A stretch of 64,000 bases of DNA from Nereocystis luetkeana (lineage: Eukaryota > Sar > Phaeophyceae > Laminariales > Laminariaceae), in the NCBI GenBank assembly GCA_031213475.1, contig JARUPZ010000019.1, positions 8,028,698 through 8,092,697 of the forward strand, given 5' to 3'. The number at the start of each line of letters is the position of its first letter. Positions within the stretch are counted from its first letter, which is position 1. The notes beneath the pieces are model-generated. The model ran no database searches. It was not told the DNA's origin and saw only the letters and a program-made list of their open reading frames with translations. Of the stretch, positions 586 through 63,044 are shown piece by piece. The position numbers and the translations under genes were made by a program.

Positions 586-723
586 TTTCGGGGGACCATA
601 GTTAATACCCTGGTAGGACCTACCAGGTATGGTATACGTAAAAACCTACCTGGTACCTGGTATATACGAGTATTTAACCATTTTTTAACAATATTTGGTC
701 CTATTAAATATTGTCCCCCGTAA
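586..723. mobile_element. Family A MITE carrying five TA-bounded insertions
   Basis: 138 bp between TA flanks. Against the 105-bp form it has CCCTGGTA (8), CCAGGTA (7), CCTGGTACCTGGTA (14, two in tandem) and CGAGTA (6) inserted, each after a TA, minus 2 bases in the right half: 105+35-2=138. Confidence 0.85.
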
Positions 724-1374
724 TACACTGTCTGTAGTGGTACATGAAACCTGAATCTGACTCTAATTCCAAGTTGTTTTCTCCCCACAATGGGAGTTCA
801 GTACTTGAGGGGGGTTAACAGGAAGCTGTTTCGTACATACACAGCAGTTTTCTTTGTCTCATATTTTGTGACGATGTAATTATTAATATTAATAGTGTCT
901 CTTTAGGATAAGGAGCCAGGACGGACACTGGGTGTACTGATGAAGTTGGGTAGAAAGGATATTTCAAGGTGAAGACCACACTCGCAGCGGTAGTAATGCG
1001 ATTGGAAAGAGCGTGCAGCAATACTACTTACTGCCTGTGAGTACAAGTTTTGTGGTGGCGATGTCTTGTTGTACATGTGCCATGTATACGTCACACATAC
1101 TGCGGAGACCACGTCCATCACCTTCCCCACGAGGCTATCAGCATGTCGTACTCGAGGTCTGCTCTGCTTGACGTGGTCGATGCTGTAACGTCATTTACTT
1201 GCGACACTTTCGGGGATAACACAGCTGCAGTGAAGCAGGAGTTTGTGTATGTAAAGTGGCCTTCTCTGCCTACGAGCGGGGGAGGGGCGACGCCCTGGCC
1301 ATATTGCGGAGTCCGGAGTCTCACACGGCACCAACGGTGTCGTTACATCTCATGGCAACGCGAATACTACAGTA

Positions 1375-1511
1375 TTACGGGGGACCATATTAAATAGGAC
1401 CTACGGTACACACAAAAACCTACCCTGGCATATATTTCGCTATGCTTACAAACTATATTTGGTCCTATTTACTATGGACCCCGAAACGGGACTGCAGTCC
1501 TGAACGGGTTA
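1375..1511. mobile_element. Family A MITE fused to half of a family B element
   Basis: Left end TTACGGGGGACCATATTAAA; the right end runs from TATTTACTATGGACCCCG directly into AAACGGGACTGCAGTCCTGA and ACGGGTT, the right arm of family B. Inside, CCTACCCTGGCATATATTTC is a mutated 8-bp insertion at the site scarred in other copies. Confidence 0.75.
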
Positions 1512-1783
1512 TACTCGTAAGTGTAGAGTAGTTTCCGTCTCCCGTAAGTCATTACCAAACGAGGTTATTACAGGACTGTCTTACAGCTCTTGATCCTTTT
1601 TGCAAAACATACGCAATTGTACCCACTTTCTACTCATGATATCCAGTACCCCCCCCGTCCCCCCCGTCCCAATACCTACTCAACCCAACCACCTACCCCC
1701 CCCCACCCCCACGCACCCCACCTCAGCCACTAGCCCCCCCCCGGCCAGCTACCAACCTGTCCGTCCACCCAACAACCCAACTA

Positions 1784-1894
1784 TTACGGGGGACCATAGT
1801 AAATAGGACCTACGGTACACACAAAAACCTGTATATTTCCCTATTTTTACTATTAGTATGAACATTTGGTTTTATTTACTATAGTCGCCCGTGA
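1784..1894. mobile_element. Family A MITE, variant subgroup
   Basis: TTACGGGGGACCATAGTAAA to TTTACTATAGTCGCCCGTGA; TA on both sides. 111 bp. Confidence 0.8.
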
Positions 1895-1984
1895 TACCAT
1901 GTACCACTATGACCGGAGATATAGTCGGCATTTGATATTGACCTCAGCGTTCAAATGGGGCTTATATTTTCGGTCAGAGCGGTA

Positions 1985-2080
1985 TATAACACGGGTGATG
2001 AGATCAAAAACGCCACCTCGGACAAATTTGGAAGCTGACTTTCTCAACTATGGGAAACGTGCAAAACGCCGAGCGATGCG
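1985..2080 (+). repeat. Family M repeat
   Basis: AACACGGGTGATGAGATCAA, CACCTCGGACAAATTTGGAA, GCTGACTTTCTCAACTATGG, CAAAACGCCGAGCGATGCGA. Block order equals 59160-59258. Confidence 0.65.
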
Positions 2081-3883
2081 AAACCCCCCGCTGTGGTCGT
2101 GTGCGCCCAGCCCCCCTTGTGTGCCCTCCCTCTATTTTTTTTAATATACAATGGGCTCGGAAAATCCGTCCCGGGATGGGGTGTGGTATCTTCCGTCTTA
2201 ACACGGATATGTTTCCGGGCTTTATACGTAACCATGTACGAGTAGTTTGTCCCGGAAAACGTAGGATGCAGGCAGGGGTAATGGGGGGCTTCTACTGTTG
2301 TAGTTTGTTTGACCGTGGAATTTGGTGAGGGCTTCCATGTCGCATGTGAACACCTGGTAGTTATTACTCTGAATACGATATGCCGCAAGCGTGGGCAGTT
2401 TGGAAATATCTCGTCAGTAGGACCTTAAGCGAACACAATTCGAACGATTCCCAAAAGTCCTGCCTCTGCAGGCAAACGTTTGCTGCGGAGAGGAGGATCA
2501 GGCAGTGGGAGTTTCGTCATCTAGGAGTTAGATCACTTGGGAGGCTTTTTTTGTTCGGTTTCCAGTCCCGGGTCTGGCTCTTCATTATCATATTTACATC
2601 CTGTAGCTTTTCCCCCCGAGTCGTACGCGGAGGAGGATCGGGGGGGGGGCACGGAGACAAGACCCAAAGAATTTTCGTGTTTGAACCGCACATTAACACG
2701 CGGATGCATAGTATCTAATACAAACTTTTATATGTTTTCATCACACTATTAATATACACCAGTAAGACCTATGCCAATGGTACAGCGAAGTTGCAATAAA
2801 AAGTTTGAATTTCAAAGATACCCGCCAAAAAAATTCAGAACACGCTTCCTATGGGCCACCTAAAAAAAAAAAAAGTTCCTAACTTTTGGAAAAGCCCGAA
2901 AAAAGCAAATCTGGGGCCGATGTTGGGCCAACATCGGCTTGAGAAAAACTCAGGCCGATCTTTGGTTCGAAGCGGCGAGATTCCGAGTCCTCGACAGACA
3001 TCGATCAACAAAACCAACGATTGCGTCACGAATTCTGAACGGAGTGCGCTCGTTAGGGGCTCCGACCCACCCTAGGGTCACCGTCTTCACACCATGGCCG
3101 GTGTCATGTGGCGGGAGCTGACCAGGCGTGTGATAAAAAAATATTTGGACGCTGGTTTGCACAAAACAGAAGACAAAACTGCTCCATCCGTCTCGAATGG
3201 CAAAAAACAGTTTTTTTTTCAGGTTTGGGAGGATACCGTAGGACGCCGCCGGCAAGCTCTCGCCCCCTAGACCATGGATCCGCCTGATATCTTCGAGGCC
3301 GTCATCTATACTCGTTGGGCTTGCCAGATACCGAGTGGGTTGGCCGTGGGCTGAGTCTATGTCGAGATCGAGGGTCGATCGTCGCACGAGCTGGTTTCGA
3401 TCACCGTGTTGACAATTTGCGACCAGAAAAACACAAATTGCGCCGCCTGCAGCCGTTGGGGAAAAAAAAAGAAAAAATCAAACATTTTTCTCTTTTTTCC
3501 CCACAGCGGCGGTACGAGAAAATTTTCGGCTGTTTTTTTAAAGCCATATATTTGAAAAAAAAAAAATCAACTTCGCGTTTCCATTGGCATAGGTCTAAAG
3601 TCCATTAAAATATCATATTATCAAAATATGGAAGCGGCGATACGAACGCGCTATACGTATTTTTCAAGTACCGCAGTAGGGGTCTATGATGCCTGTTTGA
3701 TACTGCCGGTGCCCGATATATAGCCGGTGGAAGTCGCTTGGCTTGGCACAGATGGGGTTGACCAGCGTGGCAGTGGGAAGAATAATGCCGGTGTCCGTTG
3801 TAGTGCCGGTGTGTTGCCCTGATAGCACATGCCGGCATTATAGAGGAAACACTACTGAAGTCAGAACCCATACATGCCCTCTA

Positions 3884-3989
3884 TTACGGGAGGGAACACA
3901 GTTAATAGGACCAAGTATAGTTAGTAAAAATGGTTAAACATGCAGGTTTTGTGTACGCCATAGGTCCTATCAACTATGGTCCCCCGTAA
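3884..3989. mobile_element. Family A MITE upstream of eIF3c
   Basis: 106 bp with TA flanks; left arm partly decayed (TTACGGGAGGGAACACAGTT), right arm intact. Lies about 255 bases before the eIF3c start codon, so it may touch the promoter or leader. Confidence 0.8.
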
Positions 3990-4198
3990 TAGTTTACATA
4001 TACCAGGTACCTTATTTGTTTTGGGATTGCTTGCTGTGTATGTTTCCCCGTTATGATTTTTTTTTACAGCGCGTACGCACTGCCGCTGTTAAGTATTCAT
4101 GACGTATGAATGTAACGCCTGCCTACCTTATCTCTTTGATGGCTTGTTGTTGTTGTTAACTGTTCGCGAAACGACACTGCTTCCCAACCGCTGGGTAA

Positions 4199-4235: not shown

Positions 4236-4245
4236 CACAGGAACC

Positions 4246-4398: not shown

Positions 4399-7300
4399 GT
4401 GAGTTTTTACCTTGCCACCTGTCACTTGGGGGAGGGTGGGGGCGGCGGGATTACTCATATCGTTTATGGGCGTCGTCGGAGCGGGAGAGGACGGGAGGAG
4501 GGGGGGGGGGGGGTCGTACTCGTTTTGTTGTTGTCTTGAGCCATTGGCCTATTGACCACGCATCTATCCCTTTCAAGACGGAGCACCGTTCCTACTCCTG
4601 AAATGAGACACCTCCAACATTTCGGCGTGTCGTGACTTTTTTTTTTGTGGGGGGGGGAGAGGATGGGCAGGATACGACGCATGCTGAGGGTAGCGGTGAA
4701 CCTACTGTAGTTTTTTTCATGAGGTTGCTCACTTGAGCAGCCCCGTGTCCGTTGTAAGCCACCCGAGAACATCACCTGTGAGCTATTTGGGGGGGGGAGG
4801 AAGGGGGCGAGAAAGAGAACACGACGCATCTCACTTGTATGGGTAACGGTGAAGACGAATGCCACACGGTACGCAGGGGTGTGCCGGTTTTTTTTTTTGC
4901 TCAATATTTTCTGACCGGTTGAGCTTGTCAAGCGAGCGACTACCGGTTACTCGAAGCATGTTACTTTTCTGCTGGAATAATAGTAATAATAATATTTGTT
5001 TGTTGTAGGACTACTGTACATGGGAGCAGCGAATACCTGTTTAATCTCTTGGTCGGGTTGAGCGAACAGTTGTTTCCCTTCGAAGTCGTGTTACGGGTGA
5101 GATATTGAGCTGTTTTCGTGAGGAGCGCAGATAATAAGCCGCCACCCAGATGATAAGCCACCACCCCTACCGTGGCATTGCTCCGAGCCTAAGTGACCGA
5201 GGCTCTTTTTTCTCTTGGGGTGCTCCTTGCCATACCAATATATATTCGTATATACCAACACTTGGGGAGCTCCATGCCATACGAATAGAAATACTGCATA
5301 CCAGGTACATTTAAAGAAATGACTTTGAGAAATGGGAAGATGAGCACACGACGCCAAGCTAAAACGGGTAACGAGCGGTGCACCTTCTTGTTCTGAGGCT
5401 CCTTCCCATCTTCGCTTTTGAGGAGCTATCATGCTGCTTCATTGTTAGTTGCCATTGAGAAGGAAGTAAGCGCGCACCCGATGTGCACTACAAGTAAGTA
5501 TACTTGATATTTAATGAGTAGCGAATACCCGGTAGCAATGCTTGTTTTTCTGTTTTTGTTGTTTCTTTTACGAGTATTGTTTTTTTTTTTCTTCGTTTTT
5601 TTTTGGCTTTTTTTTCGTTTTTTCTTGTTTTTGCCCCCCCAGGGTGTTTTTCCGCTCCAGCTTTTGGACCCTTTACATCTTGTAAACACGGACTCAATAT
5701 TTGTATATGAGTTGATGTGAGAATAACAGCAGTACTGCCTGACGCGAACGTTTTTTCAACGATACATACAGGGTCCACCCCTCGTCAGTCGCACCTATTT
5801 TTTTGGCCGAAAAGTGCTATATGTACGCACGTGTATTGTGGCGTGCGTCATGCAACATACATAGAAGTGACATCAGAGAACCCTGTTGCTTTCCTCCCCC
5901 CACCGCAACGACTTGAAATATGGCAGCATTGAATCGAGCCTCCTAGGGGGGTAGATGGGGGGGGGGGGGGGGGGTGCGCGGGGGTGGGGTGGTTAGGGCT
6001 GGGTAGGTGGACGCTTTAGTGTTTTTGGTTGCGGAGATGAAGGGATAACGGGATAACAGTGAATTAATTTTGTCCGAGAGAGACGGAGAGAGAGAGAGAG
6101 AACCGTTCGGCGCTTGTCAGCGAGTTAATCGCATTCAATATTCGAGCACTCCATCCCAGGTATACGGCATGGGCGTTTTCTCACGCCCTTAATGTCCATG
6201 TCTGTGGGTGGTAGGACTGCGAGGTCGCCGACTACGGTAGAAATTAGTGGTTGCCTACAGTTAGCTGCAGCGGTGCCAACTATCCAACTTTCTGGGGTTT
6301 CCATGCTTGCGAGAAGGCTTGTTTGGTTTTATCACACTCTGTGTGTAGAATAAAGTTAAGTTCGACCGTCGTGGCGGGGTTTTTTTTGGTCTCCTCGCGG
6401 GGCCTCCGGGAGCGCCTCCGGCGAGGGGGGGGGCTGTTGTGGCTGAAGAAGGGTTGCTTTGGTTCTCGCTTCTCTCTCCTGACTTTCGTTGACTTGACTC
6501 CCAGTTGGCGGTCACCCAATTGATGGCTACCTGGTAGTTGTGGAAGTCCAGCCAACTACTGCCGGTAGTCGTGAAGTCCAGCCAACTAATAATTATGATA
6601 GCCTCGAATTCCACCCAACTAATATCTATGATAGCACTGACTACTAGCCTCGAATTCCACCCAACTATAATTATATCCATGATATGCCATCTGACTGACG
6701 GGTGCTACGGCGGTAGATGTGGTTCCTATTCATAGTTATCTTTCTGAGACTTCTATTTTGAGGAACTCTATATCTCACCCCAATGATTGATTTCGAGAAA
6801 AAACGAAAGCGTAACCTCGGCATATCGTACGTGGTCGTTCGAAAAATGGTGTGAACATGAAACGATGTTCATGACATTTAAAGAAATCTTTGAAGGGCCA
6901 ACACATTTTACCTAGCCGTGAATTCCAGCCAACCATTAAATAGCAGAATGCTGTACCAGTATAGCCGTGGAGTGTCCAGCCACTCACAGCCTCAATTTTT
7001 GGGGTGTTCCTCTGCAAGTCGTGTAACATTTTCGGTTGATGTTGGGAGACAAGACGTTTCAGTTGTCAGCGAAACACTATTTGCGCCGATGACTTGGGCA
7101 CGCTGATGCATACGCGTACCGAGCGGACGCGCGGGCGAGCGGTCCTCTGTATGTGTGTTGCTTCACCTCGCCGTCTCGCCCCTACTACTACGCATGGAAA
7201 TAGACAATGCCTTGACAGGCGACTCGAAACCCCGTTGACCGCACGCATGCATATAGATAATGCCTTGACAGGCGACTCGAAATCCCGTTGACCGCAGGTT

Positions 7301-10300
7301 GGCGTATATCCGCTATATACGTCGTACCGTTGTACTGCTACTATTTACCCGCGGATGACGATAGACAAGCGAATAGACAAGACAGGCAGACAGTCACTCT
7401 GACAGAGTGATCGCGCGTATTTTTTTGTGGTGGATTTTCTCGTCATGATTTTTTTATCCTTGGCCCTGGGCCCGATCCTAAATGATGACGCCTTTTGGTG
7501 GTGGAACTCCTCGTTTAACAGTTTTCTTCTCTGCCCTCCCTACTCGCTTCGCCTGGTGATCGCGATGGGGCGTTTTTTTTTTTAACGTTCCCCCGCGTGT
7601 GCAGGTGCGCGTGGTGAAGTCGGCGAAGGACCGATCCTTCGAGGCGATCCGCACCACCGTCATCAAGGTCCGCAACCACATCAAGATCAACGACTGGAAC
7701 GGCATCCAGGCCGACTTCGACGAGTGCAACAAGCACGTCGAAAAGAGCAAGGTGGGTCTTTGCTGAAGGCGACCTCGGCAGGGAGAGAGCGAAGGAAGCG
7801 GGGAGGGAGGCGGTTGGAAGGCGTTTTTTTTAAGGGGGGCGGGGGCGGGGTTCAGGGTGTGTGTTTTGTTGCCGGTCGGGCATTTGTTACTATTTTGTTT
7901 TTCGGGGGGGGGGTGATTCGCCACGTGAGGTCGCGTTTAGCGCTAGAATGCGGAGAGATTATTTAGCGGAAGCACACATTCGTTCATGCACGCTCGTTAG
8001 ACACGCTCATTTACAAAGGGCACACGCACGTACGTAGATAGGGGTTCCGTGATTGTTTTCGGCGTTTTTGTGTAACGTGGTGTGTGAGCTACCTTACCTC
8101 ATCCCCCTTTTGCAACTTTTTCACCCGCGTTTCGGGCCCAACGTATTATACTTGGAAGTAGTGTACGATAGTTTCTGCAGCAATTTTGTAGGCACTGCAC
8201 CCATGCTATGGGGAACACACTACTGCTGTGATATACGTGGAGTGATCTCGCGCAGATCTGCCCCGCTCAGGCAAAAATAAAATAAAATCAGTTCATGTGC
8301 ACGAACAACAAAACAACAAGTAGAGCCTTTCCAAGAACAACGACCAGCCGGCACAGCAACCAAGCGGGCCTCTGATTACGGTGAGGGTTGGAGTTAGGGT
8401 TCGCCGAAGCCCAAAATAATCTCTCCGTCAGGAAAAAATGCCTCACAAATTCGTGACAAAACCAACCCTACCTGCTCATTAGCAGCGCAGCATCAATTCT
8501 TCTGGGCACGTCTAAGGAGTATCGCGTGAACGGGCAGATATTACGCCAGCTGGGAATTAAACGTATCGTTTTTTGTTGGGGCAGTGGGCTGTGTAAATAC
8601 GTGAGTACGTAGTTTCTCGTACGAGTTCGTATGCCCAGGTGTAGTGACCTGATTTTTTCTTGTAAAGAAAGCATAAATTGCACCTTTTGGCGCGCGGTGG
8701 CGGTATGGAATTTGTTTTGATGCCAACAATGATAATGTTGTCGTCAATAGGTGATGATCGCGAAGGAGGGAGTGCCGTCTTTCTACGTGAAGCTGTTGGC
8801 GAACCTCGAGGACCTGCTGGCGGCGACCCTGAAGGATAAGCCGGCCGTGAAGAAGATGAGCGCCACCAACACTCGCTCTCTCAACCGAATGAAGCTGCAG
8901 CTGCGCAAGCACAACAAGAGGTGAGCCAAAGAACAAAAAAAACACCCGCGCTGCCGCTTTGTTTTCGTTCGGTTGTTCGTTTTTTTTTTCAATTGTTATT
9001 TTTTTTTCTTCTGTGTTTGTATTCGTTTCGTTACAAGTCACTTCGCTTTTTTTTGTTTTTCGTTTTTCGTTAGTTTCTGGGGGTGAGGTGGAGCGGGGAG
9101 GGGGAAGGGGAGTGCGCGACTCCTGCTTCTGTCAGTGGTGTCGGAGTTTGTGATGCCTATTTTATTATTTTTGACATACGTGGTGGGTATTTGTGCGTCA
9201 GCTATGTTTTTTACATGTTTTGGTGAACGTATTTTCTATATTTTTTTGAATAACTGTGTGCAGTTGTTGCATTCACCCCCCCCCCCCCCCTTCGCCTCGA
9301 AAGAGATGCGTGGTCAATGGTGAAATGACTAAGACAAGCAGCATATGAGTACCCCCCCCCCCCCCTTCCGTTATCCTGCCCCCCCCCCCCCCCCCCCCCT
9401 TTCATACCCTCTGCGATTATATTGCTTGTAGTTACGAGTTAAGAGATAGCTGACTCCCGCTAATAAAACACACGCCGGACAGATCACGATCCATCTATCT
9501 GATCTATCTGTAGATCATTTAGATACCAACCTGTCGTTATGAGATGTTGTGCAGGATCTGTGCAATGTAAAGTCCATGTGCAGTCCAGGAAACATGTCCT
9601 GGATCATGCAGGCTGTACGGCTTCCAACCGGCAACATGAGCTCTAAAAATGACATACAGGTCATACAGAACAGGAATATAGTGTTGGCCTCGAAGTATCT
9701 AGACCATGTCAATAGGTATCCGATCTGATCTATCTCACCTGTCCGAGGTGAGGTCCCATCCTGAGGACACATCAGGGGCTGCGATTGCGCTTCTGAGACT
9801 CAACACACACGCCATCCTCTCTACCAATCCACCTCTGTCCCGAAACGTGCGAAATGCAAAGACCGTTCTCATAGTAATATACCCACCATGTAAACGGCCC
9901 TCGCATCCCTGGACAGAGTGGTATGTAGCATTTTCTCGTGTATAAGCTTCTCTAATCATTTTATGACCTATACTCTCTCGTCGCCGCATGCTACCTTTTT
10001 TGGTACATGCTTGCAGCTACGAGAAGGAGATCGCCGACTTCCGCACCAACCCGTCCAACTATGCCGAGGACTCCGAATCCGATTCCGATTCGGATGATTC
10101 GGAATCCGATTCCGATTCGGACGACTCTTCTGACTCCGACTCCGACTCGGACGAAGCGGAAGACTCGGACGCGGCGGAATCGGATGACAGCGACGACTCG
10201 TCCGACGAGGCCGGCGACGCCAAACCGAGGAGCAAGCCTGTAAAGCCTCAGAAGGCGAGTGTTATATTCTATATGCCAACGTTGTCTGGATTGCTCTCTC

Positions 10301-51905: not shown

Positions 51906-54900
51906 GCACATAACTTATTTTATTTCACTGGTCTACAATATACTGCTGTTGTACCGGTCTTGATAAATACCCTGGTAGTGTTAATACCAGTCCAATATTA
52001 TTTAGTTTTCACTGCCCGGCAGGTCTTCGGGCGATGCATACATAAACACTCGCACGGAGTATTAAATACTACTCTGGACATAAACATAAGGGCCGTTTAG
52101 TCTTCTTATAAACGCCTAAACGTTCCTTTTATTTCCGACTAAAGTAGTACCTGGTATCATATGATACATGATACCGACATGCCACGCATGCCCCGTGACT
52201 CTCGACGTCTGTTCTGATCTTGCGGCGGCTCCCAGCTTACCACACAGCAGCACTCTACCGCATCGGTTGGAGGTATACATCGTTGTGATGATATTTACGT
52301 TCTGTTCGCGCTGCTTCGTCACTGACCCACCAGCACGTTTTTTTCTTCAAGTTCTTGTGGACCTCCGTTGCATCCGGAGCTCTACCGACACCACCACCAT
52401 CACCATCACCATCACTACCACTGCTATTATACTGCAACCACCGCCCTTATGCGTGGCACAAACTATTGTATGCACGCTTTAGCCTTTGCAGCGCTGCAAT
52501 TTTTATGCTGCACCAATTCCTGGTAGTTTGTGACCAAAAACTATAGTACTGCTAATACAGTGGGCGCCCGCAGTTAACCCTTTTAGGACCCCAGTCCCGT
52601 TTTGGGACAAACTACTTAAAATTTGAGTGCTTTGTCCCCACATATGGGATTGCGGTGGTAAACGGGTTAAGAAACATCATTGATGAATCAAGAAAAACAG
52701 GCTCAGATCGGCACGAACAATAATGAAATAGTGTTAAGAAACACAGCTCAACGGTGGTACCGACTCTAAATCCTATACAATAGAGTTGTATCAAGGTCAG
52801 AAATAAAATGAGACATTTGAGCCTGGACACAAAATTGACGTTTCTTAACACAGGCCGCCCGCTGTACACCTCGCTCCCAAGGGGTTCAAATACAGCACAC
52901 ATGTACCGGGCACGACGCATGGTATATCGTGTCTATCATACTCTATTGATTATAACACCAGCGTGTACGTCTGTAGGTGGAGGCCACGTTATGAATAGTA
53001 GTGGCGCCTGTCTTGTGAGCACGGACTACTTTATTGTTGCTTTTTGTTGGCGATGACATGGCAGCAATTCGATGCAAGTCGACAAGGGAAGAAAGGGTTG
53101 AAGTCTTGTCGCGATAAAAAAAGCCTTCCAAGGCAAGAACCGTGGCGGGGAGGAGGAGGGACAAGAAGAGCCTATGATACTTTTGTGACCTCGGATCTGA
53201 GTTGCGGTTAGGCAGGGGATAGACAAGGAGGGGCGGAGGTAAAACATGGGATGGAAACAAAAGCACACAACAGTTGATGGTTACCTGGCGTTTTTGGAGC
53301 CTGTCTTGTCACCATGGTTACCTCGGACTACTTTATCGTGCCGATGAGTTACTGTCAGAACGTTATTTAGGTGATCGCGTGGTTTCGTGAGTTCATGGTT
53401 ATTGTTGGAGTCTATTGTGTGAGCACGGAAATAGAATGTGGGGATAGAACAAAACATTTTTTACGTACACGATCACATGATTACGTGAAATCGTTCAAGT
53501 CTGTCTTGTGACTGCGGACGACATTTCTGGCGATGATTGTGAGAACAACATGATCGCATTCTCACCTAAATATCAACATTTGACATTTATTTTAGATAAC
53601 CTTTGTGTGGTGCATTAGTGCGTTCTTCTTCAGCGGCATCTAATACTCTTTCGTATGCCTACATATATATGGCAGATTACGGTTCACAAACAGACTGCTT
53701 GTTACTGCTGTAGTTCCCCTCTGTGACCGCCAGCTAAATTCAGGCAAACGAGTTTCCAGGTACCCGGCGCATGATGTTGAGCTCGCTTCCTTCAAGTCCA
53801 GCACGCGGTCTTTTGACCCTTTTAAGGCTACAGTCACGTTTTTGGGGACAAATTACTTATAATGTGAACGATTTGTCCCCTGAACGGGACTGCGGCCCTA
53901 CAAGCCTTCAGATTTAGAGCGCGAGAGGGCATCCTACAGTAGATGACGAGAACACGGACCGGAGTAATTCCTCATCTCGACCTCGAAGGCCGTTGTCTTC
54001 GACTATAACGCCGTACTTGTGAAATGCCACCACCCAACGCTTACTGGTACCCCGTATATAGTGTTGACATAATAGTTTGATCGTAGTGTTTTCTCTCCAA
54101 AAGGCTACAGGGTGGACCTGCTGTGGGGTACCCGGTTTAAGAGCCCACCGGAACAGGCCAGTGTTGCTGCTCTCATCTCCGAACCGCTCGTATCCCCGCT
54201 CAAGAGCGATTTGATGTCGTCCCGCGATAAGGACGAGCCTCCCTCCTAAAATCGAAACACTTTTCTTCTTGAAGAGCTGATGAGCTCGGGAAAGTTCGGG
54301 CGAACCCTGGTTGTTCAAGGTTCCGTGCCAAGCCGAAGTTACCGCTCTTTTTAACCATTTTAGGACTGCAGTCCCGGTTTTGGGACACACCACTCATTTT
54401 CCAAGTAAGCTGCCCCCGAATCGGGGCTGCGGTCCCTAGAAAGGTTACGTCCGTTTTCTCTTGTTATGGCCGCTCTTAAACCGGATCGGTTACCCCACTC
54501 TACCGCCTTAGACTAAGCGTTGATTTACCAATTTACTCAGGGGGTAGCTTGATGAAGTTAGAGGTATATATAGTCTATTAACCCCTCTGGGAGTTTGGAA
54601 GGCATGCCTTGCTTGACGGGAATCGTGCCGGAAAAAAGTGATGTCATTGTTTAGCAGCGTCGGCAAAACGAAGCAACCGGGGCTGCTGGGGTATAGCAGA
54701 GGTGTACTCATGTAACGCATGGCCGTAGCCGTGTGGCTTGTAGACCCTCGAACCCCCACAATGCCGGGACGGAGTGCGTCGGGTTTTCGGCGACCAGGCA
54801 GACATCGCTCATTGCACCAAGCGCCGTGGGGTGTTTGGGCGAGAACCGCATGGAGGCAGAGTTGCATCCTACTGAACCCTTTTAGGGCAAACTGCATCCC

Positions 54901-55453: not shown

Positions 55454-55514
<61 letters not shown>

Positions 55515-58500
55515 CGTTGTTTGTTGTTGTTTCTGTCGTCGTTGTACGTCTTGCTCATGCCGTAGAGGGCGGTTGACAAAACTGTACTTGTTTCATAAGG
55601 TGCTGTTGGGTGTTAGGGTCGATCTGACCGAGGGTTGTGTTTTAGTTTTTTTTCGGTATTTTCCCGAAATTTCTGTATTTCTTGATTTTTTCCTATAGGA
55701 AAATAAAGAAATTTCGGGAAAATACTGAAAAAACTGAAAAACGCTCCTCGTTAACCCTTTTAGAACCGCAGTCCCATATGTGGGGACAAACCACTTAAAT
55801 TTCAAGTAGTTTGTCCCCAAAACGGGACTGCGGTTCTAAAGGGGTTAAGATCGACCCTTATACCCTTGGGTAAGACCTTGCTTGTCATACGTATGCAGGT
55901 TTGGCGTTTTAGCTGGGTCTCGAAGGGATTCATAGGGCTCTGTAAAATCAAGAATAGTGCCAAAGTCAGTCCATTTCAAGCAGGCTGAGAGCGCCTAGCG
56001 TGGGTAGGCAGGCGCACTTCGACTCGAGTTGACGAGGGAAGAACGGGCTGAAATATTTTGGCGACAAAAGTGCCTTCCAAGGTACGAACCGTATTGGGGA
56101 GGGGAGGGTACGAGCCTACTATGTGACCCCGCATATGAGTTGCGACTACTACTCAATAGCAGGGAAAGCAGGGAGATAGAAAAGAAAGGCGGATATCTGG
56201 TATTTTAACATACGGGATGGAAAATAAAATCACCAAAGTGGAGCGACCAGAACGATGTAGAGTATGATACTGTGCGTTTCTTTGGCCAGCGTCCACCGTG
56301 AGCGCGCAACGTTAGAATGAGTACCACCGTGTAACGCTTTAGGTAGCATCGCCCTATCGGATTGAAGTTCGGAGCCGACATTCTCTTTATGATGGGGACA
56401 AGGTGCAAACGCCGAGCGGAGCGGTGCGTCTATGTGGAGATGTCTCCGTCGAGATCTTTCCCAATCCGTCTTTGTTGTTTTTTGTGTGTACCCCTCCCTT
56501 GCTCTGGAGACGCTCTGCTTGGAGAGTCGTCCCACAGTTGATGTGTTATCGTGCGTATTATTGTGCGTCGCGCGTGTCACACAAGTCCGTGCATTGCATA
56601 CTCCGAAGCATTAAAAAAAAAAAAAATGCCCCAAGGCTGTGAGGTTCAAATTTTCCTCAAAGCTCATTTTTGGAGCTTGGTGGCGGTGCTGTTACTATTA
56701 GTGTTTGTGGTCATACTTGGATCGCGCGTGCCACAAGGCAAGGGGTGTGTAGGCTGCAGAGCGGTCTTGCGTACACGGCTCTGACTTTTTTCCATTCAAC
56801 ACCCTCTGTAACCCTGCATCCTAATGGTTCTAAGCCTAATGGTCTAATGATGCTATGTACATCGTGTGGCCGAGGCTGTACCGTCCGGTTTCGTATGGGT
56901 TTTCGTTTTTGTCAATTTTTTGTAAGTCTTCTGCCGCCTCGTCGAAGGTGGAGAGGCACTTGGCCAAGGGATGTAGGGTAAAAACTACCGGTATGGCTTT
57001 TGTACCAGCAACAATTGGCCAATCGCAAGGCCTGACATGCCTCTACGAGTACTCAGTTGTCGTGACGGCGGTGTCAACCATGCTAGTTTTGGGGTTTTCT
57101 TTTTATATATTTTTTGTGTGCTAAAAGAAAACACATGGCGTAGTATTCGCCTCCGGTGGCGACTTGAGCGGGGTCCTCCAGAGGCGCCTCCTTGGAGCCC
57201 TCCGGCGGCCCCTCCGGGGGCACCTCCCACGGCCCACCGTCAGCCGGGGTGCGGACGTTTTTTTGGCTCACCTGACTTTGTTCACCTCACGAAGTCTAGA
57301 GTCAGTTACGAGTACCAGACGCGAACTAAACACACGTGACGGCACGAGGGACGCAACGATTGTTGATTACCTTGTGGAAGTTGCGTTCTGTGTTTAGTCG
57401 TCCGAACACCTGCCGGTGTCAAGGCAGTCCTGGAGGGTACTATTAACACTACACGGGTACACATGGTACAAGAGCTTTACTAGAGTGCACCTCGTCTCCG
57501 ATATAATGGAGTCCTGCTACTGGCGCCACGTATTTGCCCCTGGTGGGCTTGAGGTTCAGCCTCGTGGCTTCGAAATGGTCGATTGCGCGAGTTCGAATCC
57601 CCCTCCCAATGGGACTGTTTCTTACGCAAGCATGGAGGTCTGGACTAGAATGGTAGCGCGTACTACCAGGTAGCGCATAGCAGCGTGTATCGGCACGATT
57701 CGAGGCGAGTCGGCGACGGAAGAACGTTGCTGAAGTCCGCTCGCGATAAAACCGAAGGCACAGACAGTCGTAGGGAGGCGGGGGAGAAGTGCCTGGTACG
57801 TGACTCAATGGTTGATCTGAGCTAAGAAAGGGCGGGAGCTGGAGAAGTAGGTTGGACGACAACGGTGGATGGGAGGGGAAATAAAATGAAGAGACTGGTG
57901 TGTGGGATGTGTCGTAATGTATGACTCGATACGACAGCACGAGTAGGTGTGCAGGCTTTTGGAGTTTTTTTTTAAATTTGATCCCAGGGTAGGGTTTTTC
58001 GGCGTCGCTACTGTAGTGGCTTACTTTTACGGGGGACCCTAGTTAACAGGACCAAATATTGTTAGCAAAAATGGTTAAATATACAGGTTTTATGTATACC
58101 ATAGGTCCTGTTAACTATGGTCCCCCGTAATAGCTTTCTACCTTTCGGTGCTGTGGATGGTGTGCTGGTGTGTTTCGGTGCCCCATTGTCCTCTTTGCCC
58201 TTGCGACAGTGGCATCAATCACGCTTCTCAGCGGTACGCATCGATCTCCCCCCCCCCCTCTCTCTCATGCCCTATTTGTCATGGACACGATAGACACGAT
58301 GGACATGACGGACATGGCGGGCATCACTCGGGCGTGCCCATGTGCCAGTCGACGACGATGCCACCATCCGAGGTCATTTTAGCGTTTTGAGCTTGTAAAC
58401 GTGCATATCAGTATAAATTTCACACGTTTTGTAGCGTATCAAGAGTGCATCGGTGCCTTCTAGATACTTGTCTGTGTGCGCTGCCGTGCACGGTACCTGG

Positions 58501-61500
58501 TATAGATATGTTCGTTGGCGCTGTTGCATTTTGTCGGCAACGAGGGTGACATGTTGGTGACATTGCGTCTGGTGCTGCCTAGCGCTCAGTTCATATGATA
58601 CCCGGCGGGTATTCTACACAGCAGTGACTCGCACAAGTATCGTATAATATTATACCAGGTGCCTGGTATCAGGTTACGATATTATGATATATATATATCA
58701 CGATACAGACCGTCAATATTAACGCTAACTCGGTCCCCGATCTGTTCCGAATTTGTGCGGTGTCCGGTAACCGCGCGGGAACCACCGCTTTCCTCATGAT
58801 GCATTTGCAAGGTATTGCTGTCTACTCACACGATGAGTTAATTAAACGGCATGTATATGTGTATGTATACGAAGTAAATTGTTGGTCTCGGTTCTTGGCC
58901 GAGCAGCGCTCGCCCGTTGAAATGAGCGAACAAGCTGGGAGGAAACCGCGTGTAGCCGTACATCTGTACGCGACAGTACCATATCACACCACACGGGCGA
59001 TGAGATAACACACGTTATCTATCGCACCGGTGATACTATAACACACACCGTATCACACGGGTGATAAGACAACACACCGTATCACACGGGTGGTAAGATA
59101 ACACACGGGTGATGAGACAACACACCGTAAAACACAGGTGATGAAATAACACACATTATCGCACGGGTGATAACGTAACACACCCCCTCGGACGAATTTC
59201 GAAGCCGATTTCCTAGACAACGGGGAGAACGTACTGAATACGCCCAGCGATTCGCACATACGTCTATATGGAATAATCTCGACGCGATAGTTCCAAAAGA
59301 GAACGATTTTAGGATGTGTGTGTTTATTGCACCCTCGATTTTTGGAGGAAATCGTCTCTGAGATTCTCCCCGGGAGAGTGTAATCTCAAGTATACTCTGG
59401 CCGTAAACATAAGAACCGCTTGGTCTTTATTTTAGCGACCAAACGTTACTTATATTTCCGCTCAGGGTGGTCTGTCGGTACTACTGTCGAATCTCTCCGG
59501 AAATGTAAGGAGCACTTGGGTCAAGGCAACGCATTACAGGGCGGGATGAGCCAGGACAGCAGGGTAGGGGGCAGGGATGCACAGGGCAGCTGCTGGCCCG
59601 GGACAGCAAGAGAGGCGACTGCGTTCTCGCAGATGTAGAGATGTTCAAGCCCTATCCCACGATCGACTCTGCTTCCTCTCTGGCTCTGTGTTTTTCTGGT
59701 ATTCACACTATTTAATAATTAATACCTTTGTAGTTTATGCCAGGTATCTCTTTCGGGGTAGGGTTGGGGTTGTTGTCTTTGTTCTTTTCCGATGCTGGTG
59801 ATGTCGGGTTGGGGGGGAGGGGGTTGCTTTGATCAGGAGATAAAGCCACAGGCCCAGATGCAGCAGCAACAGCAAGAGGAGCGTTACGCTGCGCCTGCTT
59901 GCGCTGCTTTCAGCACTGGACAAAAAACTCGTGCTGCGCGCCCTAATGGCGTGGTATACGAACCTGTTCTGAATATGGATGTGAAGGGGCCTGTGAAAAC
60001 AAGACGCGTTCTGTGCGCTCTACTCGTTCGTGTGATACGCGACACCGCTCTGTCCGGAATCGCAACGAACCTTTGCGCGTGCTCAAGCGGCCCTTACAGC
60101 TCCCTGACCCTCAGGGTGATGCTCTCGCAGGCTCTTATAGTGAGTTACTTCACGCTGCCGACGTTTCGGCCGGCACCCAGATAATGAAACGATAGAGTAA
60201 GAGCGTGCCCAACAAACAGAAGGCCAAAGTTACTGTTCATGGTATATACGACCGAGGTGTCCGGCCGGGCATCCCGTCTCGACTACTCAGCGTTTCGCCA
60301 AAAAGCGCTCGTACGAAGAGATCTATTCGAAAAAGTACGAAAAAATCACAGACATAACCATTACTGTATACCAGTACCAGGTATATGTCTATACACCCCT
60401 TCCGTTTACCATTCCGTATTTTCGGGGACAAACGCGGGCAGCATTGACGACACAGCAGTGCCACCCCCTTTTTTTTATCTCCTGTAGGTTTTTCGCTCGT
60501 GCCATGGGTCTGTTATACGTAATTAATCGCCTTGTAATAGTGTTTCATGGAAATATATACACGAAGTATATACGTGCATATTATATACATTCCTTCGCCG
60601 GTAGGTCCACCCACGAATCGCGAGTGCGTGAGACGTGAAATACCTGTATGCTACTGCCATGTGGCATGCGATTGTTTTGCGTTGTTGTTTTCGTTTTTGA
60701 TTTCTCGCTTTTATTTTTACGCATTTTTTTTTTTTTTTGCTGTTCCCGCCCCCCTCCGCCGCTCCGGCGGCATCCATCTATGACTGTATGGATCCATGTG
60801 TTGTCATCTTGTCGTTGGTGTGCCGTTGTGCTTCCCTTTGTTCTTGCTCGTCCTCACTACTGCTGTGCTGCTGTGAGTGCTACTACCCCTTTTAGGGCTG
60901 AGGTCCCGTTTTGTGGAGAAACTACGAGCATTTGACTGGTTTTTCCCCCAAGAACGGGACTGCGGTCCTAAAAGGGTTACAATAGTAGTGCTGCTACTGT
61001 TAGTGCTACCGCTGCACGAAGTGTATACTGCCTAGTGATACTAACGCGCCTGCTGCTGTTAATAGCACTGCTGTATATGGTGCTGCTGTAGAACAAGCAC
61101 CCACCCCCCCTAGAGGTGTCTCTATTAGGAGTAGGGACGGTGCTCCGTCTCGAAAAATGGGATGCGTGGCCAATGGTCAAATTATCCAGACAAGCAACAA
61201 ACGAGTACGCCCCCCCCCCCACCCCTTTCCCTTCTTTCCCGGTCCTGGTTCGGTGTTGATGTCGGCAGGCTCGATTCCCAAGACGATCGGACAGCTGTCC
61301 AACCTTTGCATCCTCAGCCTTCGAGGGAACAAGTTGAAAGGTGCGCTGCGGTTCGGTGCGGCTTGTTTTGACGGTGTTGCGGCAAAAACCGTGGTGTGCA
61401 AGTAGCAGCCCCAAATAGGCACCTACTGTAGGTTCGGGTGGTGCGGCTTTTACCTTTTTTCTGATTGCTGTTGGCGCTAGTTAGTGTCAACGCTGACGCA

Positions 61501-63044
61501 ATTTAAATGTCCTTTCTGTTTATAGCTGACGATATTGAAAGGTAACTCTATTTATATCTGTTACGGGGGACCATTGTTAATAGGACGAAGTATTGTTCGT
61601 AAAATTAGCGAAATACTTCGAAGTATATAGTTTTTTGTCTGCACCGTACCTGGTAGGTGCTACTAACTATGGTCCCCCGTAATAACTCTATTTAAAGCGA
61701 ACGCTATTTAGTAAAGCTAACGATATTTACAGTAGTAAAGCCAACGCTACATAAGGCTAACGCTATTCAAAGCTAACTCTCACTTGAAGCTAACGCTAAC
61801 CCTGTGGTCGGTTGGTCCGGGTTCCGTCCACCGCATCAGTGCGCTTACTCACTCCTTGCGTTCTTGACAAATGATCAGTCGTGTTTCCGGACAGGTAAGA
61901 GACAGGCGCAAAGTTAGACCAGTGATAGACCCTTCTTGCCATGATGGACACGCCCGGCGTTGGTCCCAGCTCCTTGCTCCGGCCGGACTGGGTTGCTTGG
62001 AATCGTGAACCGAATCGTGTTTTTTTTTTCTTTCTTCCCGGCACAACAAGCTACTCGGACTTTCGAGTTGGATTCATCTCTGCAGTACCGGTATATACGA
62101 GTAGCAAAAGGGTTACTGCTCTGCTGCTGTAACGTGATTCGCTGGGAGGGATTTCCTCTTGCCCAGTTTTATGTTCTTCCCCTAGCGTTGTCGCCACTTG
62201 GGAGATCGGATGAAAATAGAATGTATACATATACTGGAATTTTTTTCTTGTGAGAATCGTACCGACATGGATTCTTCACAACTTGTTTTAGTCGTGAAAT
62301 GCGAGCGTACTTAACGGCACCGACTGCCGTTGTTTTATCGGTGTCTGAGTATTGGGTTCGAGCCCTCATCAAGCGGTGGTGCTGCGGGTACAGTTGGTCC
62401 CGAGGCTCGACTTCCGGCACGTAGGGGGGGAATTTTTGGTGCTGGGCTTTTCTTTTTCAATTTCTGGTATACCAGGTATAGTTCAACGGTAAACACCACT
62501 GCTGTGTCCGGGAATATGGAGTGCGCTTTGGGCGTTGGAAGTAACATCTAAACGCAGCCTTATTTACCGGAACAGAGTGGTAGTTGTGACGTGAGTTAGC
62601 CCAAGTAAGAGAAGGAAGTGCTCACCCCTTCGCGCGTTATTTTTCAAGGCGCGTGTACCGTAGCAGGGAGGGGGGGGGGGGGGGTCAAACCTGGCGTGAC
62701 ATGTAATTCTGCAGGGAGGGGGAGAGATGGGCAGGGAGAGGGGGAGGGGTCTGAGGATGATTAAGTAGAGCTCAAGGGGCACTGGAATACAATACGTACC
62801 TGGTATGTGTTTTACGTTTTTTGTTGTTGTTTGTTCTGCTGTAATTTATGTTTTTTTGGTGGTGTGTGTTTATGTGTTTTTTTTCCCCTCCGGTCGGCAG
62901 GTGACATCGTTCCGGAGCTGGGCGACCTCACCGGCCTGCGGACTCTCAGCCTGCGCGACAACCATTTCACCGGCACCATTCCGCCCGAGCTGGGGCAGCT
63001 CACCGCCTTGAGGCACCTCTTCTTGAACAACAACAAGCTCAGAG
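43102..63044 (+). CDS. Leucine-rich repeat protein, 5' part (five exons seen)
   Basis: Predicted join 43102-43192, 43468-43656, 44724-44795, 61269-61340, 62901-63044: 568 nt, about 189 residues, open at the right end. After a short N-terminus comes an LRR N-cap-like module (RALLTLFWCTSGPEWTQKSG ... DLGEWCGVGLD ... VTLVDLRRNRLSG), then four 24-residue LRRs of the plant type (GxIPPELGxLTxLRxLxL). Every junction is phase 1 and splits a Gly codon, and repeat exons are 72 or 144 nt. Such modular LRR exons are known in brown algal LRR families, where the LRRs are joined to ROCO GTPase or NB-ARC/TPR parts; no such domain lies in this window. Binding partner and cell location are unknown. The 16.5-kb third intron is long, so exons 4-5 could belong to a second gene. 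Confidence 0.7.
43468..43656 (+). CDS. LRR gene exon 2, LRR N-terminal module
   Basis: 189 nt, phase 1 at both ends. Residues APSTAPERRALLTLFWCTSG, then W(15 apart)W-type pattern PEWTQKSGW...EWCGVGLD, then VTLVDLRRNRLSG. The ALL.LF..T.G..W....W......W.GV pattern with a following L.L..N.L.G is the usual cap of this LRR class. Acceptor GTTCTTAG after a strong pyrimidine tract; donor TCAG|GTCAGA. Confidence 0.8.
44038..44217 (+). repeat. (CTG)n trinucleotide tracts in LRR intron 2
   Basis: CTG/GCTGCT runs at about 44040-44110 (with CCG and TTG interruptions) and a purer run at 44189-44216. Frames through them are poly-Ala/Leu/Cys or, reversed, poly-Gln; I do not take them as coding. Confidence 0.8.
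44724..44795 (+). CDS. LRR gene exon 3, one LRR
   Basis: Exactly 72 nt: (G)ALPPEMGDLGGLRHLYLGDN then QLQ(G). Acceptor TTTGACAG, donor CAAG|GTCAGG, phase 1 on both sides. Confidence 0.88.
47050..47232 (-). repeat. Family K fragment (minus)
   Basis: Short G-rich lead, GGCATGCCATGCACCGTAGT, TGACCGTAGACCCTCCCATC, CAGGTTTGCACCGACCAGGC, GAAGGGTGAGCTGCATCCCA. Keeps about half of the element from the homopolymer end. Confidence 0.75.
47814..47924. mobile_element. Family A MITE, decayed ends
   Basis: TACCGGGGGCCATATTTAAT at the left and ATGGTCCGCCGTAA at the right; variant subgroup with CTACGGTACGACC inside. Flanks no longer TA on the right. Confidence 0.75.
48468..48545 (+). repeat. Family F 3' fragment
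   Basis: GAATGGATGAAGAATATGCA, CGGACATTCGATGTGCTGGA, TGTCGACGGGTATGCATAGA, AAGAACGTG. The TATGCA insertion in the last block is specific to this copy. Confidence 0.65.
49060..49130 (+). repeat. Family F 3' fragment
   Basis: CAATCGGCACGGACACTGGT, TGTGCTGGATGTCGACGGGC, GTTTAATGTGAATAACACAC. Very close to the full copies over its 70 bp. Confidence 0.7.
49280..49397. repeat. Family B hairpin element, expanded loop
   Basis: Arms CTGCAGTCTGCAGTCCCTTT and CCAAAACGGGACTGACTGCA; about 25 bp longer than typical, the extra sequence lying in the loop (CAGCTGTTTTTCAACGATGT). Confidence 0.7.
49757..50146 (+). repeat. Family K element, full-length copy
   Basis: ATCATTTGTGCGAGGCAAAG through ATCACGTAGTGTTCATGGTA, CCATTGCTGTCTCTGGACGT, CACCTCACGGCGCTTCGCGC to ATCGAGTACACC and a short C run. 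Confidence 0.82.
50865..51087 (+). repeat. Family F relative, 3' half
   Basis: GGCATGGCATTGCGTTGTTG, ATTGTCTCCGTGTC, CAACAGAGCTTGTATCTTCC, GGATGGAGAATCAAGCACGG, AAGAACACACACACACAA. Older copy, but the (CA)n end is kept. Confidence 0.7.
51870..51906 (+). repeat. (AGT)12 microsatellite
   Basis: About 12 pure AGT units flanked by TCCTAC and GGCACA. Confidence 0.9.
52040..52145 (+). repeat. Family H repeat, copy 1
   Basis: Shares with 59363-59470: ACTCTGG(A/C)C, TAAACATAAG, CCGYTTRGTCTT, AAACGTT and TTTATATTTCCG-type blocks. Pairing halves (TTTAGTCTTCTTATAAACG / CGCCTAAACGTTCC) suggest a weak hairpin. Confidence 0.6.
52574..52669. repeat. Family B hairpin element, TTAA ends
   Basis: GTTAACCCTTTTAGGACCCC to GGTGGTAAACGGGTTAAG. 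TTAA occurs at both ends, either a target duplication or the outermost part of the arms. Confidence 0.82.
53070..53265 (+). repeat. Family G repeat, copy 1
   Basis: GATGCAAGTCGACAAGGGAA, GTTGAAGTCTTGTCGCGATA, GCCTTCCAAGGCAAGAACCG, TGTGACCTCGGATCTGAGTT, ACATGGGATGGAAACAAAA. Other copies at 56020 and 57685, all on the same strand. Confidence 0.72.
53815..53905. repeat. Family B hairpin element (decayed)
   Basis: ACCCTTTTAAGGCTACAGTC to CTGAACGGGACTGCGGCCCT. Confidence 0.75.
54353..54446. repeat. Family B hairpin element
   Basis: AACCATTTTAGGACTGCAGT to TCGGGGCTGCGGTCCCTAGA, AAGGTTA. Confidence 0.78.
54700..54873 (-). repeat. Family K fragment (minus), no G run
   Basis: GTACTCATGTAACGCATGGC, CGAACCCCCACAATGCCGGG, GGCGACCAGGCAGACATCGC, GCATCCTACTGAACCC. 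The only clear K copy without a long homopolymer at its end; it is also the most diverged, so the run may have been lost. Confidence 0.7.
54876..55000. repeat. Family B element with tandem centre
   Basis: The loop region CCTCTCAGATTCTGTGTGGT is present twice (first copy CCTGTCAGATTCTGTGTGGT), making the element about 125 bp. Arms carry GCATCCCATTTTGGGGACAA and its mirror, a matched change from the family's GCAGTCCCGTTTT. Confidence 0.8.
55454..55515 (+). repeat. (TTG)20 microsatellite
   Basis: About 20 TTG units with one CTTG interruption after the end (TTGTCGTTG). The minus strand would read poly-Gln, but no gene context supports coding. Confidence 0.9.
55620..55750. repeat. Palindrome TTTCCCGAAATTTC...GAAATTTCGGGAAA
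   Basis: TATTTTCCCGAAATTTCTGT and AGAAATTTCGGGAAAATACT face each other around TTTTTTCCTATAGGAAAATA, and TTTAGTTTTTTTTCGG mirrors CTGAAAAAACTGAAAA. A long AT-rich hairpin directly before a family B copy. Confidence 0.75.
55751..55848. repeat. Family B hairpin element, best preserved
   Basis: TTAACCCTTTTAGAACCGCA and CTGCGGTTCTAAAGGGGTTA arms with TTAA at both ends; centre ACCACTTAAATTTCAAGTAG. A good reference copy. Confidence 0.87.
56020..56235 (+). repeat. Family G repeat, copy 2
   Basis: TCGAGTTGACGAGGGAAGAA, TGCCTTCCAAGGTACGAACC, GTGACCCCGCATATGAGTTG, ACGGGATGGAAAATAAAATC. Confidence 0.72.
56340..56425 (+). repeat. Family M repeat
   Basis: GGATTGAAGTTCGGAGCCGA, CATTCTCTTTATGATGGGGA, GTGCAAACGCCGAGCGGAGC. 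Relatives near 1985-2080 (GTGCAAAACGCCGAGCGATG) and 59160-59258. Confidence 0.6.
57685..57900 (+). repeat. Family G repeat, copy 3
   Basis: GATTCGAGGCGAGTCGGCGA, CTCGCGATAAAACCGAAGGC, GTAGGGAGGCGGGGGAGAAG, TGATCTGAGCTAAGAAAGGG, AGGGGAAATAAAATGAA. The most diverged copy. Confidence 0.65.
58027..58130. mobile_element. Family A MITE, near intact (104 bp)
   Basis: TTACGGGGGACCCTAGTTAA to GTTAACTATGGTCCCCCGTA. TA flank kept on the right; the left is TT. Confidence 0.82.
58685..58703. repeat. (TA)n microsatellite
   Basis: GATATATATATATCA, flanked by TATCGT/ACGATA inverted pieces. Confidence 0.75.
58996..59182 (+). repeat. Minisatellite CACGGGTGATNAGA
   Basis: About six or seven units of 22-38 bp: CACGGGTGATAAGACAACAC then ACCGTATCA, with shortened forms. 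It passes into a family M copy (CCTCGGACGAATTTCGAAGC). The family M copy at 1985 also starts with AACACGGGTGATGAGA, so the array seems to have grown out of the start of family M. Confidence 0.75.
59363..59470 (+). repeat. Family H repeat, copy 2
   Basis: GAGAGTGTAATCTCAAGTAT, ACTCTGGCCGTAAACATAAG, ACCGCTTGGTCTTTATTTTA, GCGACCAAACGTTACTTATA. Shares block order with 52040-52145. Confidence 0.6.
60884..60978. repeat. Family B hairpin element
   Basis: ACCCCTTTTAGGGCTGAGGT to ACGGGACTGCGGTCCTAAAA, GGGTTA. Confidence 0.82.
61110..61215 (-). repeat. Inverted S-family repeat ending at a C run
   Basis: GAGGTGTCTCTATTAGGAGT, AGGGACGGTGCTCCGTCTCG, GATGCGTGGCCAATGGTCAA, GACAAGCAACAAACGAGTAC, then C. 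It ends about 50 bases before LRR exon 4. Confidence 0.78.
61269..61340 (+). CDS. LRR exon 4, one LRR
   Basis: Exactly 72 nt, phase 1 both sides: (G)SIPKTIGQLSNLCILSLRGN then KLK(G). Acceptor GTCGGCAG, donor AAAG|GTGCGC. Less GC-rich and less consensus-like than the other repeats. Confidence 0.85.
61561..61682. mobile_element. Family A MITE with two TA-bounded insertions
   Basis: 122 bp, which is 105 plus a 7-bp CCTGGTA insertion (ACCGTACCTGGTAGGT where relatives read ACCGTAGGT) plus a 10-bp CTTCGAAGTA insertion (AAATACTTCGAAGTATATAG against AAATATATAG). Right flank TA; left flank TG. Confidence 0.83.
62901..63044 (+). CDS. LRR exon 5, two LRRs
   Basis: 144 nt, exactly two 72-nt units: (G)DIVPELGDLTGLRTLSLRDN-HFTG, then TIPPELGQLTALRHLFLNNN-KLR(G). 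Phase 1 both sides. Acceptor GGTCGGCAG (the same GTCGGCAG context as exon 4), donor AGAG|GTTAGT. Likely a fused pair of repeat exons (intron loss) or an unsplit duplication. Confidence 0.88.

Follow-up and report, generated by a model that had tools for sequence, protein, structure and literature searches.

What could have placed the same nine-base word, TACC(A/T)GGTA, again and again in one stretch of a brown algal genome? The stretch in question, referred to below as the window, comprises 64,000 nucleotides at 8.03-8.09 Mb of contig 19 of Nereocystis luetkeana (assembly GCA_031213475.1). A first reading of the letters took the word for the probable scar that a transposon leaves at a TA site.

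Abundance of the motif in the window and in the genome

The original prediction reported about 35 copies of the motif, where some 0.5 would be expected by chance. An exact count also gives 35, with 19 copies of TACCAGGTA and 16 of TACCTGGTA, and each of the 30 positions named as examples turned out to lie within 0-8 bp of a real site. The chance figure is borne out by 100 dinucleotide-preserving shuffles of the window, which contain 0.47 copies on average and 3 at most, none of them reaching 35. Markov models of orders 1 to 4 predict 0.2 to 0.9 copies per form; order 5, which already includes much of the motif, predicts about 4. In a ranking of the arms of all 256 words of the type xxxxWyyyy in the window, TACC comes first with 35 copies and TAGG second with 8, the latter probably being part of the miniature element (MITE) treated below. 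TACCSGGTA occurs twice. The putative scars of the window are given below with no strand assigned; those labelled "scar" are exact matches, and MITE A denotes the family described in the next section.

606-615, TACCCTGGTA, +1 scar variant (8-bp insertion in MITE A), from alignment to empty MITE copies
621-629, scar TACCAGGTA in MITE A, GGACCTA/CCAGGTA/TGG, also by MITE alignment
647-655, scar TACCTGGTA in MITE A, first member of a tandem pair, also by MITE alignment
654-662, scar TACCTGGTA in MITE A, second member of the pair, also by MITE alignment
1421-1430, TACCCTGGCA, decayed +1 scar in MITE A copy 1373, from MITE alignment
4001-4009, scar TACCAGGTA
5299-5307, scar TACCAGGTA
6528-6536, scar TACCTGGTA
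13914-13922, scar TACCAGGTA
21397-21405, scar TACCAGGTA in MITE A copy 21349, AAAAACCTA/CCAGGTA/TAGATTT, also by alignment to a 93% identical empty copy
23942-23950, scar TACCAGGTA
28271-28279, scar TACCTGGTA
29442-29450, scar TACCTGGTA
30401-30409, scar TACCTGGTA
32885-32893, scar TACCAGGTA
33213-33221, scar TACCAGGTA
33243-33251, scar TACCTGGTA
34484-34492, scar TACCAGGTA
41061-41069, scar TACCAGGTA
42363-42371, scar TACCAGGTA
45900-45908, scar TACCTGGTA
46029-46037, scar TACCAGGTA
46664-46672, scar TACCTGGTA
46683-46691, scar TACCTGGTA
46865-46873, scar TACCAGGTA
47676-47684, scar TACCTGGTA
47784-47792, scar TACCAGGTA
47968-47976, scar TACCAGGTA
48856-48865, TACCCTGGTA, +1 variant
49230-49238, scar TACCTGGTA
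51233-51241, scar TACCAGGTA
51968-51977, TACCCTGGTA, +1 variant
52148-52156, scar TACCTGGTA
57664-57672, scar TACCAGGTA
58494-58502, scar TACCTGGTA
60375-60383, scar TACCAGGTA
61647-61655, scar TACCTGGTA in MITE A copy 61559, also by MITE alignment
62470-62478, scar TACCAGGTA
62797-62805, scar TACCTGGTA

The enrichment extends to the whole genome: the 465-Mb assembly (1,987 contigs) contains 182,395 copies of TACC(A/T)GGTA vs. 1,744 of a reversed-pattern control. This corresponds to about one copy per 2.5 kb (0.39 per kb), the window being richer with 0.55 per kb. The identical pattern was found at 202 sites, against 135 for the reversed one, in five bacterial genomes (MAGs) taken together, so the excess is not a general one. 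A sample of 20 contigs, with 10 kb read at one fixed position in each (200 kb), has the motif in 18 of its 20 stretches, with 60 W-centred and 2 S-centred copies.

The window harbors an intron-rich eIF3c gene at about 9967-21066. For the protein joined from its exon pieces, identity is 86% with both Ectocarpus (covering 78% of the query) and Scytosiphon (47%), 83% with Sphacelaria (47%), and 76% with Discosporangium (48%). Among the best 120 of 2,198 matches, one of them given without identity, those that do not bear the name of a brown alga stay at or below 64%, and the gene places its host among the brown algae. A Pfam scan assigned the eIF3c domain to 4 of 131 window open reading frames, and four of the scanned frames belong to the stretch 14,858-21,066. 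The earlier remark that no copy lies in an exon holds for this stretch, the only one covered, which contains none of the 35 motifs.

Insertion at TA in copies of a MITE

The origin of the motif can be followed in MITE family A, whose members are about 110 bp long, TA-flanked, of the form TATTACGGGGGACC...GGTCCCCCGTAATA and with the ends TTACGGGGGACCATAG. The window contains about 13 copies that are full or nearly so, and there are more in many other stretches. The approximate coordinates in the window are as follows.

584-725, plus strand, MITE A copy with four TA-site insertions (609, 621, 647, 654), from alignment to the empty copies 13274-13382 and 20020-20128
1373-1488, MITE A copy
1782-1896, MITE A copy
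3881-3991, MITE A copy
13274-13382, MITE A copy
18985-19093, MITE A copy
20020-20128, MITE A copy
21349-21464, MITE A copy
27833-27941, MITE A copy
28043-28172, MITE A copy
47812-47926, MITE A copy
58025-58132, MITE A copy
61559-61684, MITE A copy

Compared with the empty copies 13274 and 20020, copy 584-725 has CCCTGGTA extra after AATA, CCAGGTA extra after GGACCTA, and CCTGGTA extra twice after AAAAACCTA. Copy 21349 carries CCAGGTA inserted after the same AAAAACCTA, and an empty copy at 20018-20129 is 93% identical to it. In copy 61559 the insertion is at the GGACCTA site, the same MITE site as that of 621 on the other strand; copy 1373 bears a decayed 8-bp insertion, and copies outside the window (L024, L006) have insertions at other TAs too. 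In each case the inserted unit is exactly CCWGG plus TA (or CCCTGG plus TA) at an existing TA, that is, 7 or 8 bp. The claim that family A MITEs had gained CCAGG or CCTGG together with one TA is thus confirmed by alignment to empty copies. Empty and scarred states both occur among the MITE A copies, and no filled state was seen. The MITE itself was rejected as the source of the scars, since its ends are TTACGGGGG.

A wider search was made for sequences matching the joined flanks of 126 sites (100 W-centred and 26 variants), with an ungapped match required in the 275 kb searched. Twelve sites have such a match and the other 114 have none. Seven of the twelve are MITE A copies; for one of these (647), the counterpart is a copy with one scar and not an empty copy. 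The remaining five matches are weaker or consist of simple sequence, and in one of them, from outside the MITE (L019), the relatives have CA where TA is expected.

The dependence on TA is also evident from direct repeats of the form XY-CCWGG-XY. With all 16 dinucleotides counted in 264 kb, TA gives 95 and the others 0 to 5 each. Dcm-type methylation of CCWGG was rejected as a cause, as it leaves the TA repeats unexplained. A passage on Ectocarpus describes that alga, not the present one, as being without cytosine methylation (PMC12477816). Taken together, TACC(A/T)GGTA is a genuine insertion mark, very uniform and saturating the genome.

Several other repeats share this DNA. Another family of inverted repeats, its ends resembling CCCTTTTAGGACTGCAGTCCCGTTT, is found at 361-458, 10654-10751, 27703-27770, 29917-30014, 32666-32733, 53812-53909, 54361-54428, 55750-55847, and 60882-60979. 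A 300-bp direct repeat (10962-11261 and 41828-42127) is 99% identical between its copies, and five diverged 122-nt tandem copies, spaced 243-288 bp, occupy 11658-12835. CTA/TAG trinucleotide repeats are very abundant, ACTACTACT occurring 793 times in a 200-kb sample (L012-L031).

A probable excision footprint and the alternatives to it

We infer from the sequence that the motifs are likely to be excision footprints of a DNA transposon of the cut-and-paste type, with TA as its target, CCAGG ends, and a 5-nt stagger between the cuts. The transposon, the stagger, the repair path, and recent jumping all belong to this model; excision itself is deduced, because the source element was not found. The element would insert at TA and duplicate it, both of its ends reading 5'-CCAGG inward from the TA. 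At excision, the transposase would cut one strand at the tip of the element and the other 5 nt inside, so that a 3' overhang ending in CCAGG would stay on each flank. The two overhangs could pair at four of five positions (C-G, C-G, A-A, G-C, G-C), with a central A:A mismatch. After ligation, repair of the mismatch would leave either A or T in the middle, and hence TACCAGGTA or TACCTGGTA. Pairing out of register by one base would yield the minor variants TACCAGGGTA/TACCCTGGTA, TACCAGTA/TACTGGTA, and TACCGGTA. Such a slip should produce CCAGGG/CCCTGG, not CCTGGG/CCCAGG, and CCAG/CTGG, not CCTG/CAGG; in other words, TACCAGGGTA should exceed TACCTGGGTA, TACCAGTA should exceed TACCTGTA, and S centres should be few.

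The counts in 264 kb are consistent with these expectations. The centre is W in 95 cases (1.8 expected) and S in 4 (1.4 expected), as the ambiguous A/T centre of the original prediction demands. Between two TAs, on both strands, CCAGGG occurs 8 times (0.63 expected) vs. once for CCTGGG (0.52), and CCAG 25 times (9.8 expected) vs. 10 for CCTG (8.0 expected). The junction variants are therefore strand-specific, as for two joined element tips, although the numbers are small and come from the 264 kb only. Both contrasts were counted after the slip model had been framed; CCCTGG had been spotted in the window before that and hence is not an independent prediction. The slipped products CCGG (11, 2.5 expected) and CCCGGG (2, 0.18 expected) are present too. 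CCATGG, which the model allows, was found 0 times in 264 kb (0.44 expected), and the fully filled footprint CCAGG plus CCTGG was likewise found 0 times there. The CCAGG...CCTGG ends named in the first reading thus hold up, and the shifted variants fit re-annealed CCAGG overhangs.

The scars appear to be of some age. In 264 kb there are 99 one-mismatch forms where 44.9 are expected, an excess of 54 beside the 95 exact copies, which corresponds to a decay of about 0.07 changes per site if all scars are given one age. Decay does not affect all positions alike: an excess of transitions is seen at the outer T (+14.7), the A (+12.4), and the first C (+9.1), and none at the second C (4 vs. 5.8 expected). 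The target flanks are asymmetric, with GTA...TAT or its reverse (GTAT/ATAC) in 41 of 95 sites as compared to 14.3 expected from all TAs. Moreover, at the MITE site AAAAACCTA the centre of the decayed scars is A on the MITE strand in 104 of 142 matches; the scar centres in 264 kb are 55 A vs. 40 T. The uneven decay, the bias to A at this site, and the asymmetric targets do not follow from a simple footprint model.

Two of these features, the uneven decay without excess transitions at the second C and the preferred GTA...TAT flanks, together with the palindromic form of the motif, are what would be expected of a functional site kept by selection, for instance one bound by a transcription factor or another DNA-binding protein, with no scar involved. 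We regard this as improbable. In MITE copies, the motif is gained at TA as a precise addition of 7 or 8 bp that related copies lack, and four such insertions are found in one 140-bp copy. It recurs about every 2.5 kb across the genome and exists in tandem copies, and its slipped variants carry the strand bias expected of CCAGG overhangs. One-mismatch forms are in excess, and an origin of conserved sites by point mutation is not what was found.

Two loci allowed a comparison with contigs filed under bacterial MAGs. Positions 15-3702 of L006 are 99% identical to contig 4 of the algal assembly and represent a second haplotype, either of this species or of one very close to it. All three scars compared there are common to both haplotypes. 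One differs by 6 bp, being TACCTGGTA in L006 and TACCTGGTACTGGTA in the assembly; this reflects either a second event, with CTGG as its 4-nt slipped product, or a duplication of CTGGTA in tandem. For the rest of L006 no match is listed, and the contig may be chimeric. At L010, positions 1-3009 are 100% identical to the alga genome over 3,009 bases, so nothing is learned there on change.

It is conceivable that elements reside at TAs in the germline or at another stage of the life cycle and are removed by a domesticated transposase in the tissue that was sequenced. TA-bounded elimination is known in ciliates, and a programmed removal of this kind would account for very many scars without elements. 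It is nevertheless very improbable here, given that three scars are common to two haplotypes and that an excess of 54 one-mismatch forms stands beside the 95 exact copies; with so many decayed copies, the scars look heritable and old.

Tandem double insertions, in which CCWGGTA occurs twice, form 6 pairs among the 95 sites in 264 kb; a further 8 pairs were counted in the first 100 sites listed for the genome (contig 1). The scar itself creates the GTA...TAT context, which may explain the tandems. Spread of a repeat or microsatellite by slippage or recombination would also generate some tandem pairs, and the polymorphic haplotype site does resemble one extra CTGGTA unit. However, most copies in the window are single and have dissimilar flanks. 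The centres, furthermore, differ in 5 of the 14 pairs, which are accordingly not simple duplications. This explanation can hardly be credited, less so than any of the other alternatives.

The predicted source element and known systems

Nothing convincing as an intact element with CCAGG...CCTGG ends was found in 275 kb. For 483 head-to-head CCWGG pairs in these 275 kb, the inverted-repeat extension scores follow the control with one exception, a pair matching at 13 of 16 bases (0.1 expected), both ends of which are scars in AT-rich, TAATAAT-like DNA. Half-site extensions that recur revealed no family, only TACCAGGTGTTCACA twice and a few duplicated stretches. The commonest MITE insertion site was used as a trap, with 142 matches, of which 53 have AAAAACCTACCWGG followed by A/C and 89 have it followed by T and then not A. 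All 53 of the former were read (by eye 44 in the MITE and 9 outside) and 40 of the latter (35 in the MITE and 5 outside). No convincing source element appeared at these 93 of the 142 matches, 79 of them in the MITE by eye and 14 outside. At 78 of the 79, the MITE sequence resumes within the stretch read, which identifies them as decayed scars; one holds a different insertion. In this one, L126 (extended as L135, about 152-1400), some 1.25 kb of other DNA lies within MITE A, bounded by the 7-bp direct repeat TACTCAA, which is more than 10 bases away from CCAGG. By eye, this is another element, and it was rejected as the source.

Protein searches were also negative. Genome searches with Pfam DDE_3 (PF13358; control found in 3 of 14) and Transposase_1 (PF01359; control silent) gave 0 matches each, with divergent or intron-split transposases escaping such searches. 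The scan of 131 chosen window reading frames (127 beyond 21 kb and four from 14.8-21.1 kb) revealed eIF3c and LRR domains only, and Rfam gave no window match at gathering thresholds. Virus contigs scanned with the MITE end gave one match, L001, which resembles a bacterial phage tail region, is scar-free, and was discarded as a chance match; a second scan alongside it yielded nothing. A scan of bacterial genomes returned five MAG contigs, L002-L006, and the first 3.7 kb of L006 are alga DNA.

Does the lack of a visible element favour an enzyme that writes the tiny insertion directly into TA from a CCAGG-bearing RNA or DNA template, with no larger element at all? No filled site was found in the 275 kb or in the 93 trap matches read, the scar sequence is very uniform, and scars are often themselves targeted, as in the tandem pairs. 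Two re-annealing CCAGG overhangs, by contrast, would be expected to give both the A/T centre and slipped variants specific to one strand, and we know of no enzyme that writes such small template-coded insertions. Direct writing is therefore unlikely. For the excision model, the lack of intact copies is not fatal, because cut-and-paste movement with end joining can keep the copy number level while the scars add up: each germline jump would add one, even without a gain in copies. A small number of elements, active steadily over a long time, could suffice to leave far more scars than elements, although this is an argument and not a measurement.

Insertion at TA with duplication of the TA is common to the Tc1/mariner superfamily and the present mark, and the palindromic insert with its ambiguous A/T centre is like that of Sleeping Beauty in the form given by the original prediction. 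In passages of earlier papers, footprints are put at 2-4 bp for Tc1/mariner (PMC7913693), at 0-4 bp for Passer (PMC9976928), and at two or three nucleotides for the family as a whole, with two for ISY100 (PMC2170065), whereas the dominant footprint here, CCWGG (95 in 264 kb), has 5 nt and is outside the 2-4 bp range. A passage of another paper places the first cut of Sleeping Beauty and mariner three nucleotides inside, as compared to the five proposed here, and states that the footprint is identical to the overhang, Sleeping Beauty excision being repaired by end joining to leave its 3' overhang (PMC7827188); the insert here would equally correspond to the 3' overhang of the flank. Further differences from Sleeping Beauty and Tc1/mariner are that one five-base footprint dominates at 182,395 sites and that no element or transposase was found in our searches. 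Since a 5-nt stagger would fall outside the Tc1/mariner range, the description "Sleeping Beauty-like" applies to how excision works and not to family membership. The consensus of mariner terminal repeats begins with YYAGRT, and the predicted 5'-CCAGG(T), of which the model supplies only five bases, would fit it.

Stowaway/Osmar5 elements in grasses, as described in passages of PMC1925063, leave varied fragments of 1-4 bp from their terminal repeats. The present case appears similar in having such fragments between TA duplications at empty sites and in re-insertion at old footprints, but here a single 5-bp product dominates the genome. Likewise, excisions of DNA transposons in rice are reported as varied, with perfect ones rare (8 of 94), in the part of PMC4423477 compared, whereas the footprints here are uniform. 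Among brown algae, Ectocarpus offers a comparison, with 17 Mariner-Tc1 families and mostly non-autonomous copies according to passages of a 2025 paper (PMC12477816), whose main text contains the words "excision" and "footprint" 0 times. Elements flanked by TA are mentioned for the Ectocarpus virus EsV-1 in a paper on Fanzor (PMC3627910). A full-text search for both 9-mers gave, among the matches listed, what look like primer, barcode, or chance matches, and no description of such genome-wide scars is among the literature matches listed.

Lifetime rates of transposition are hard to measure, because excision scars tend to be scarce, variable, and difficult to recognise. We consider it an even question whether this brown alga preserves fossil traces of well over 100,000 individual jumps by a single TA-transposon lineage, whose transposase would cut 5 nt inside CCAGG ends and whose own scars would be favoured targets, giving rise to chains. 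A stagger of 5 nt is not described in the literature passages compared and, if true, would extend the knowledge of TA transposases. In general, if this reading is true, every jump would have left the same recognisable 9-mer, at a density of about one per 2.5 kb, so that jumps could be counted and dated through their decay, and the choice of targets mapped genome-wide.
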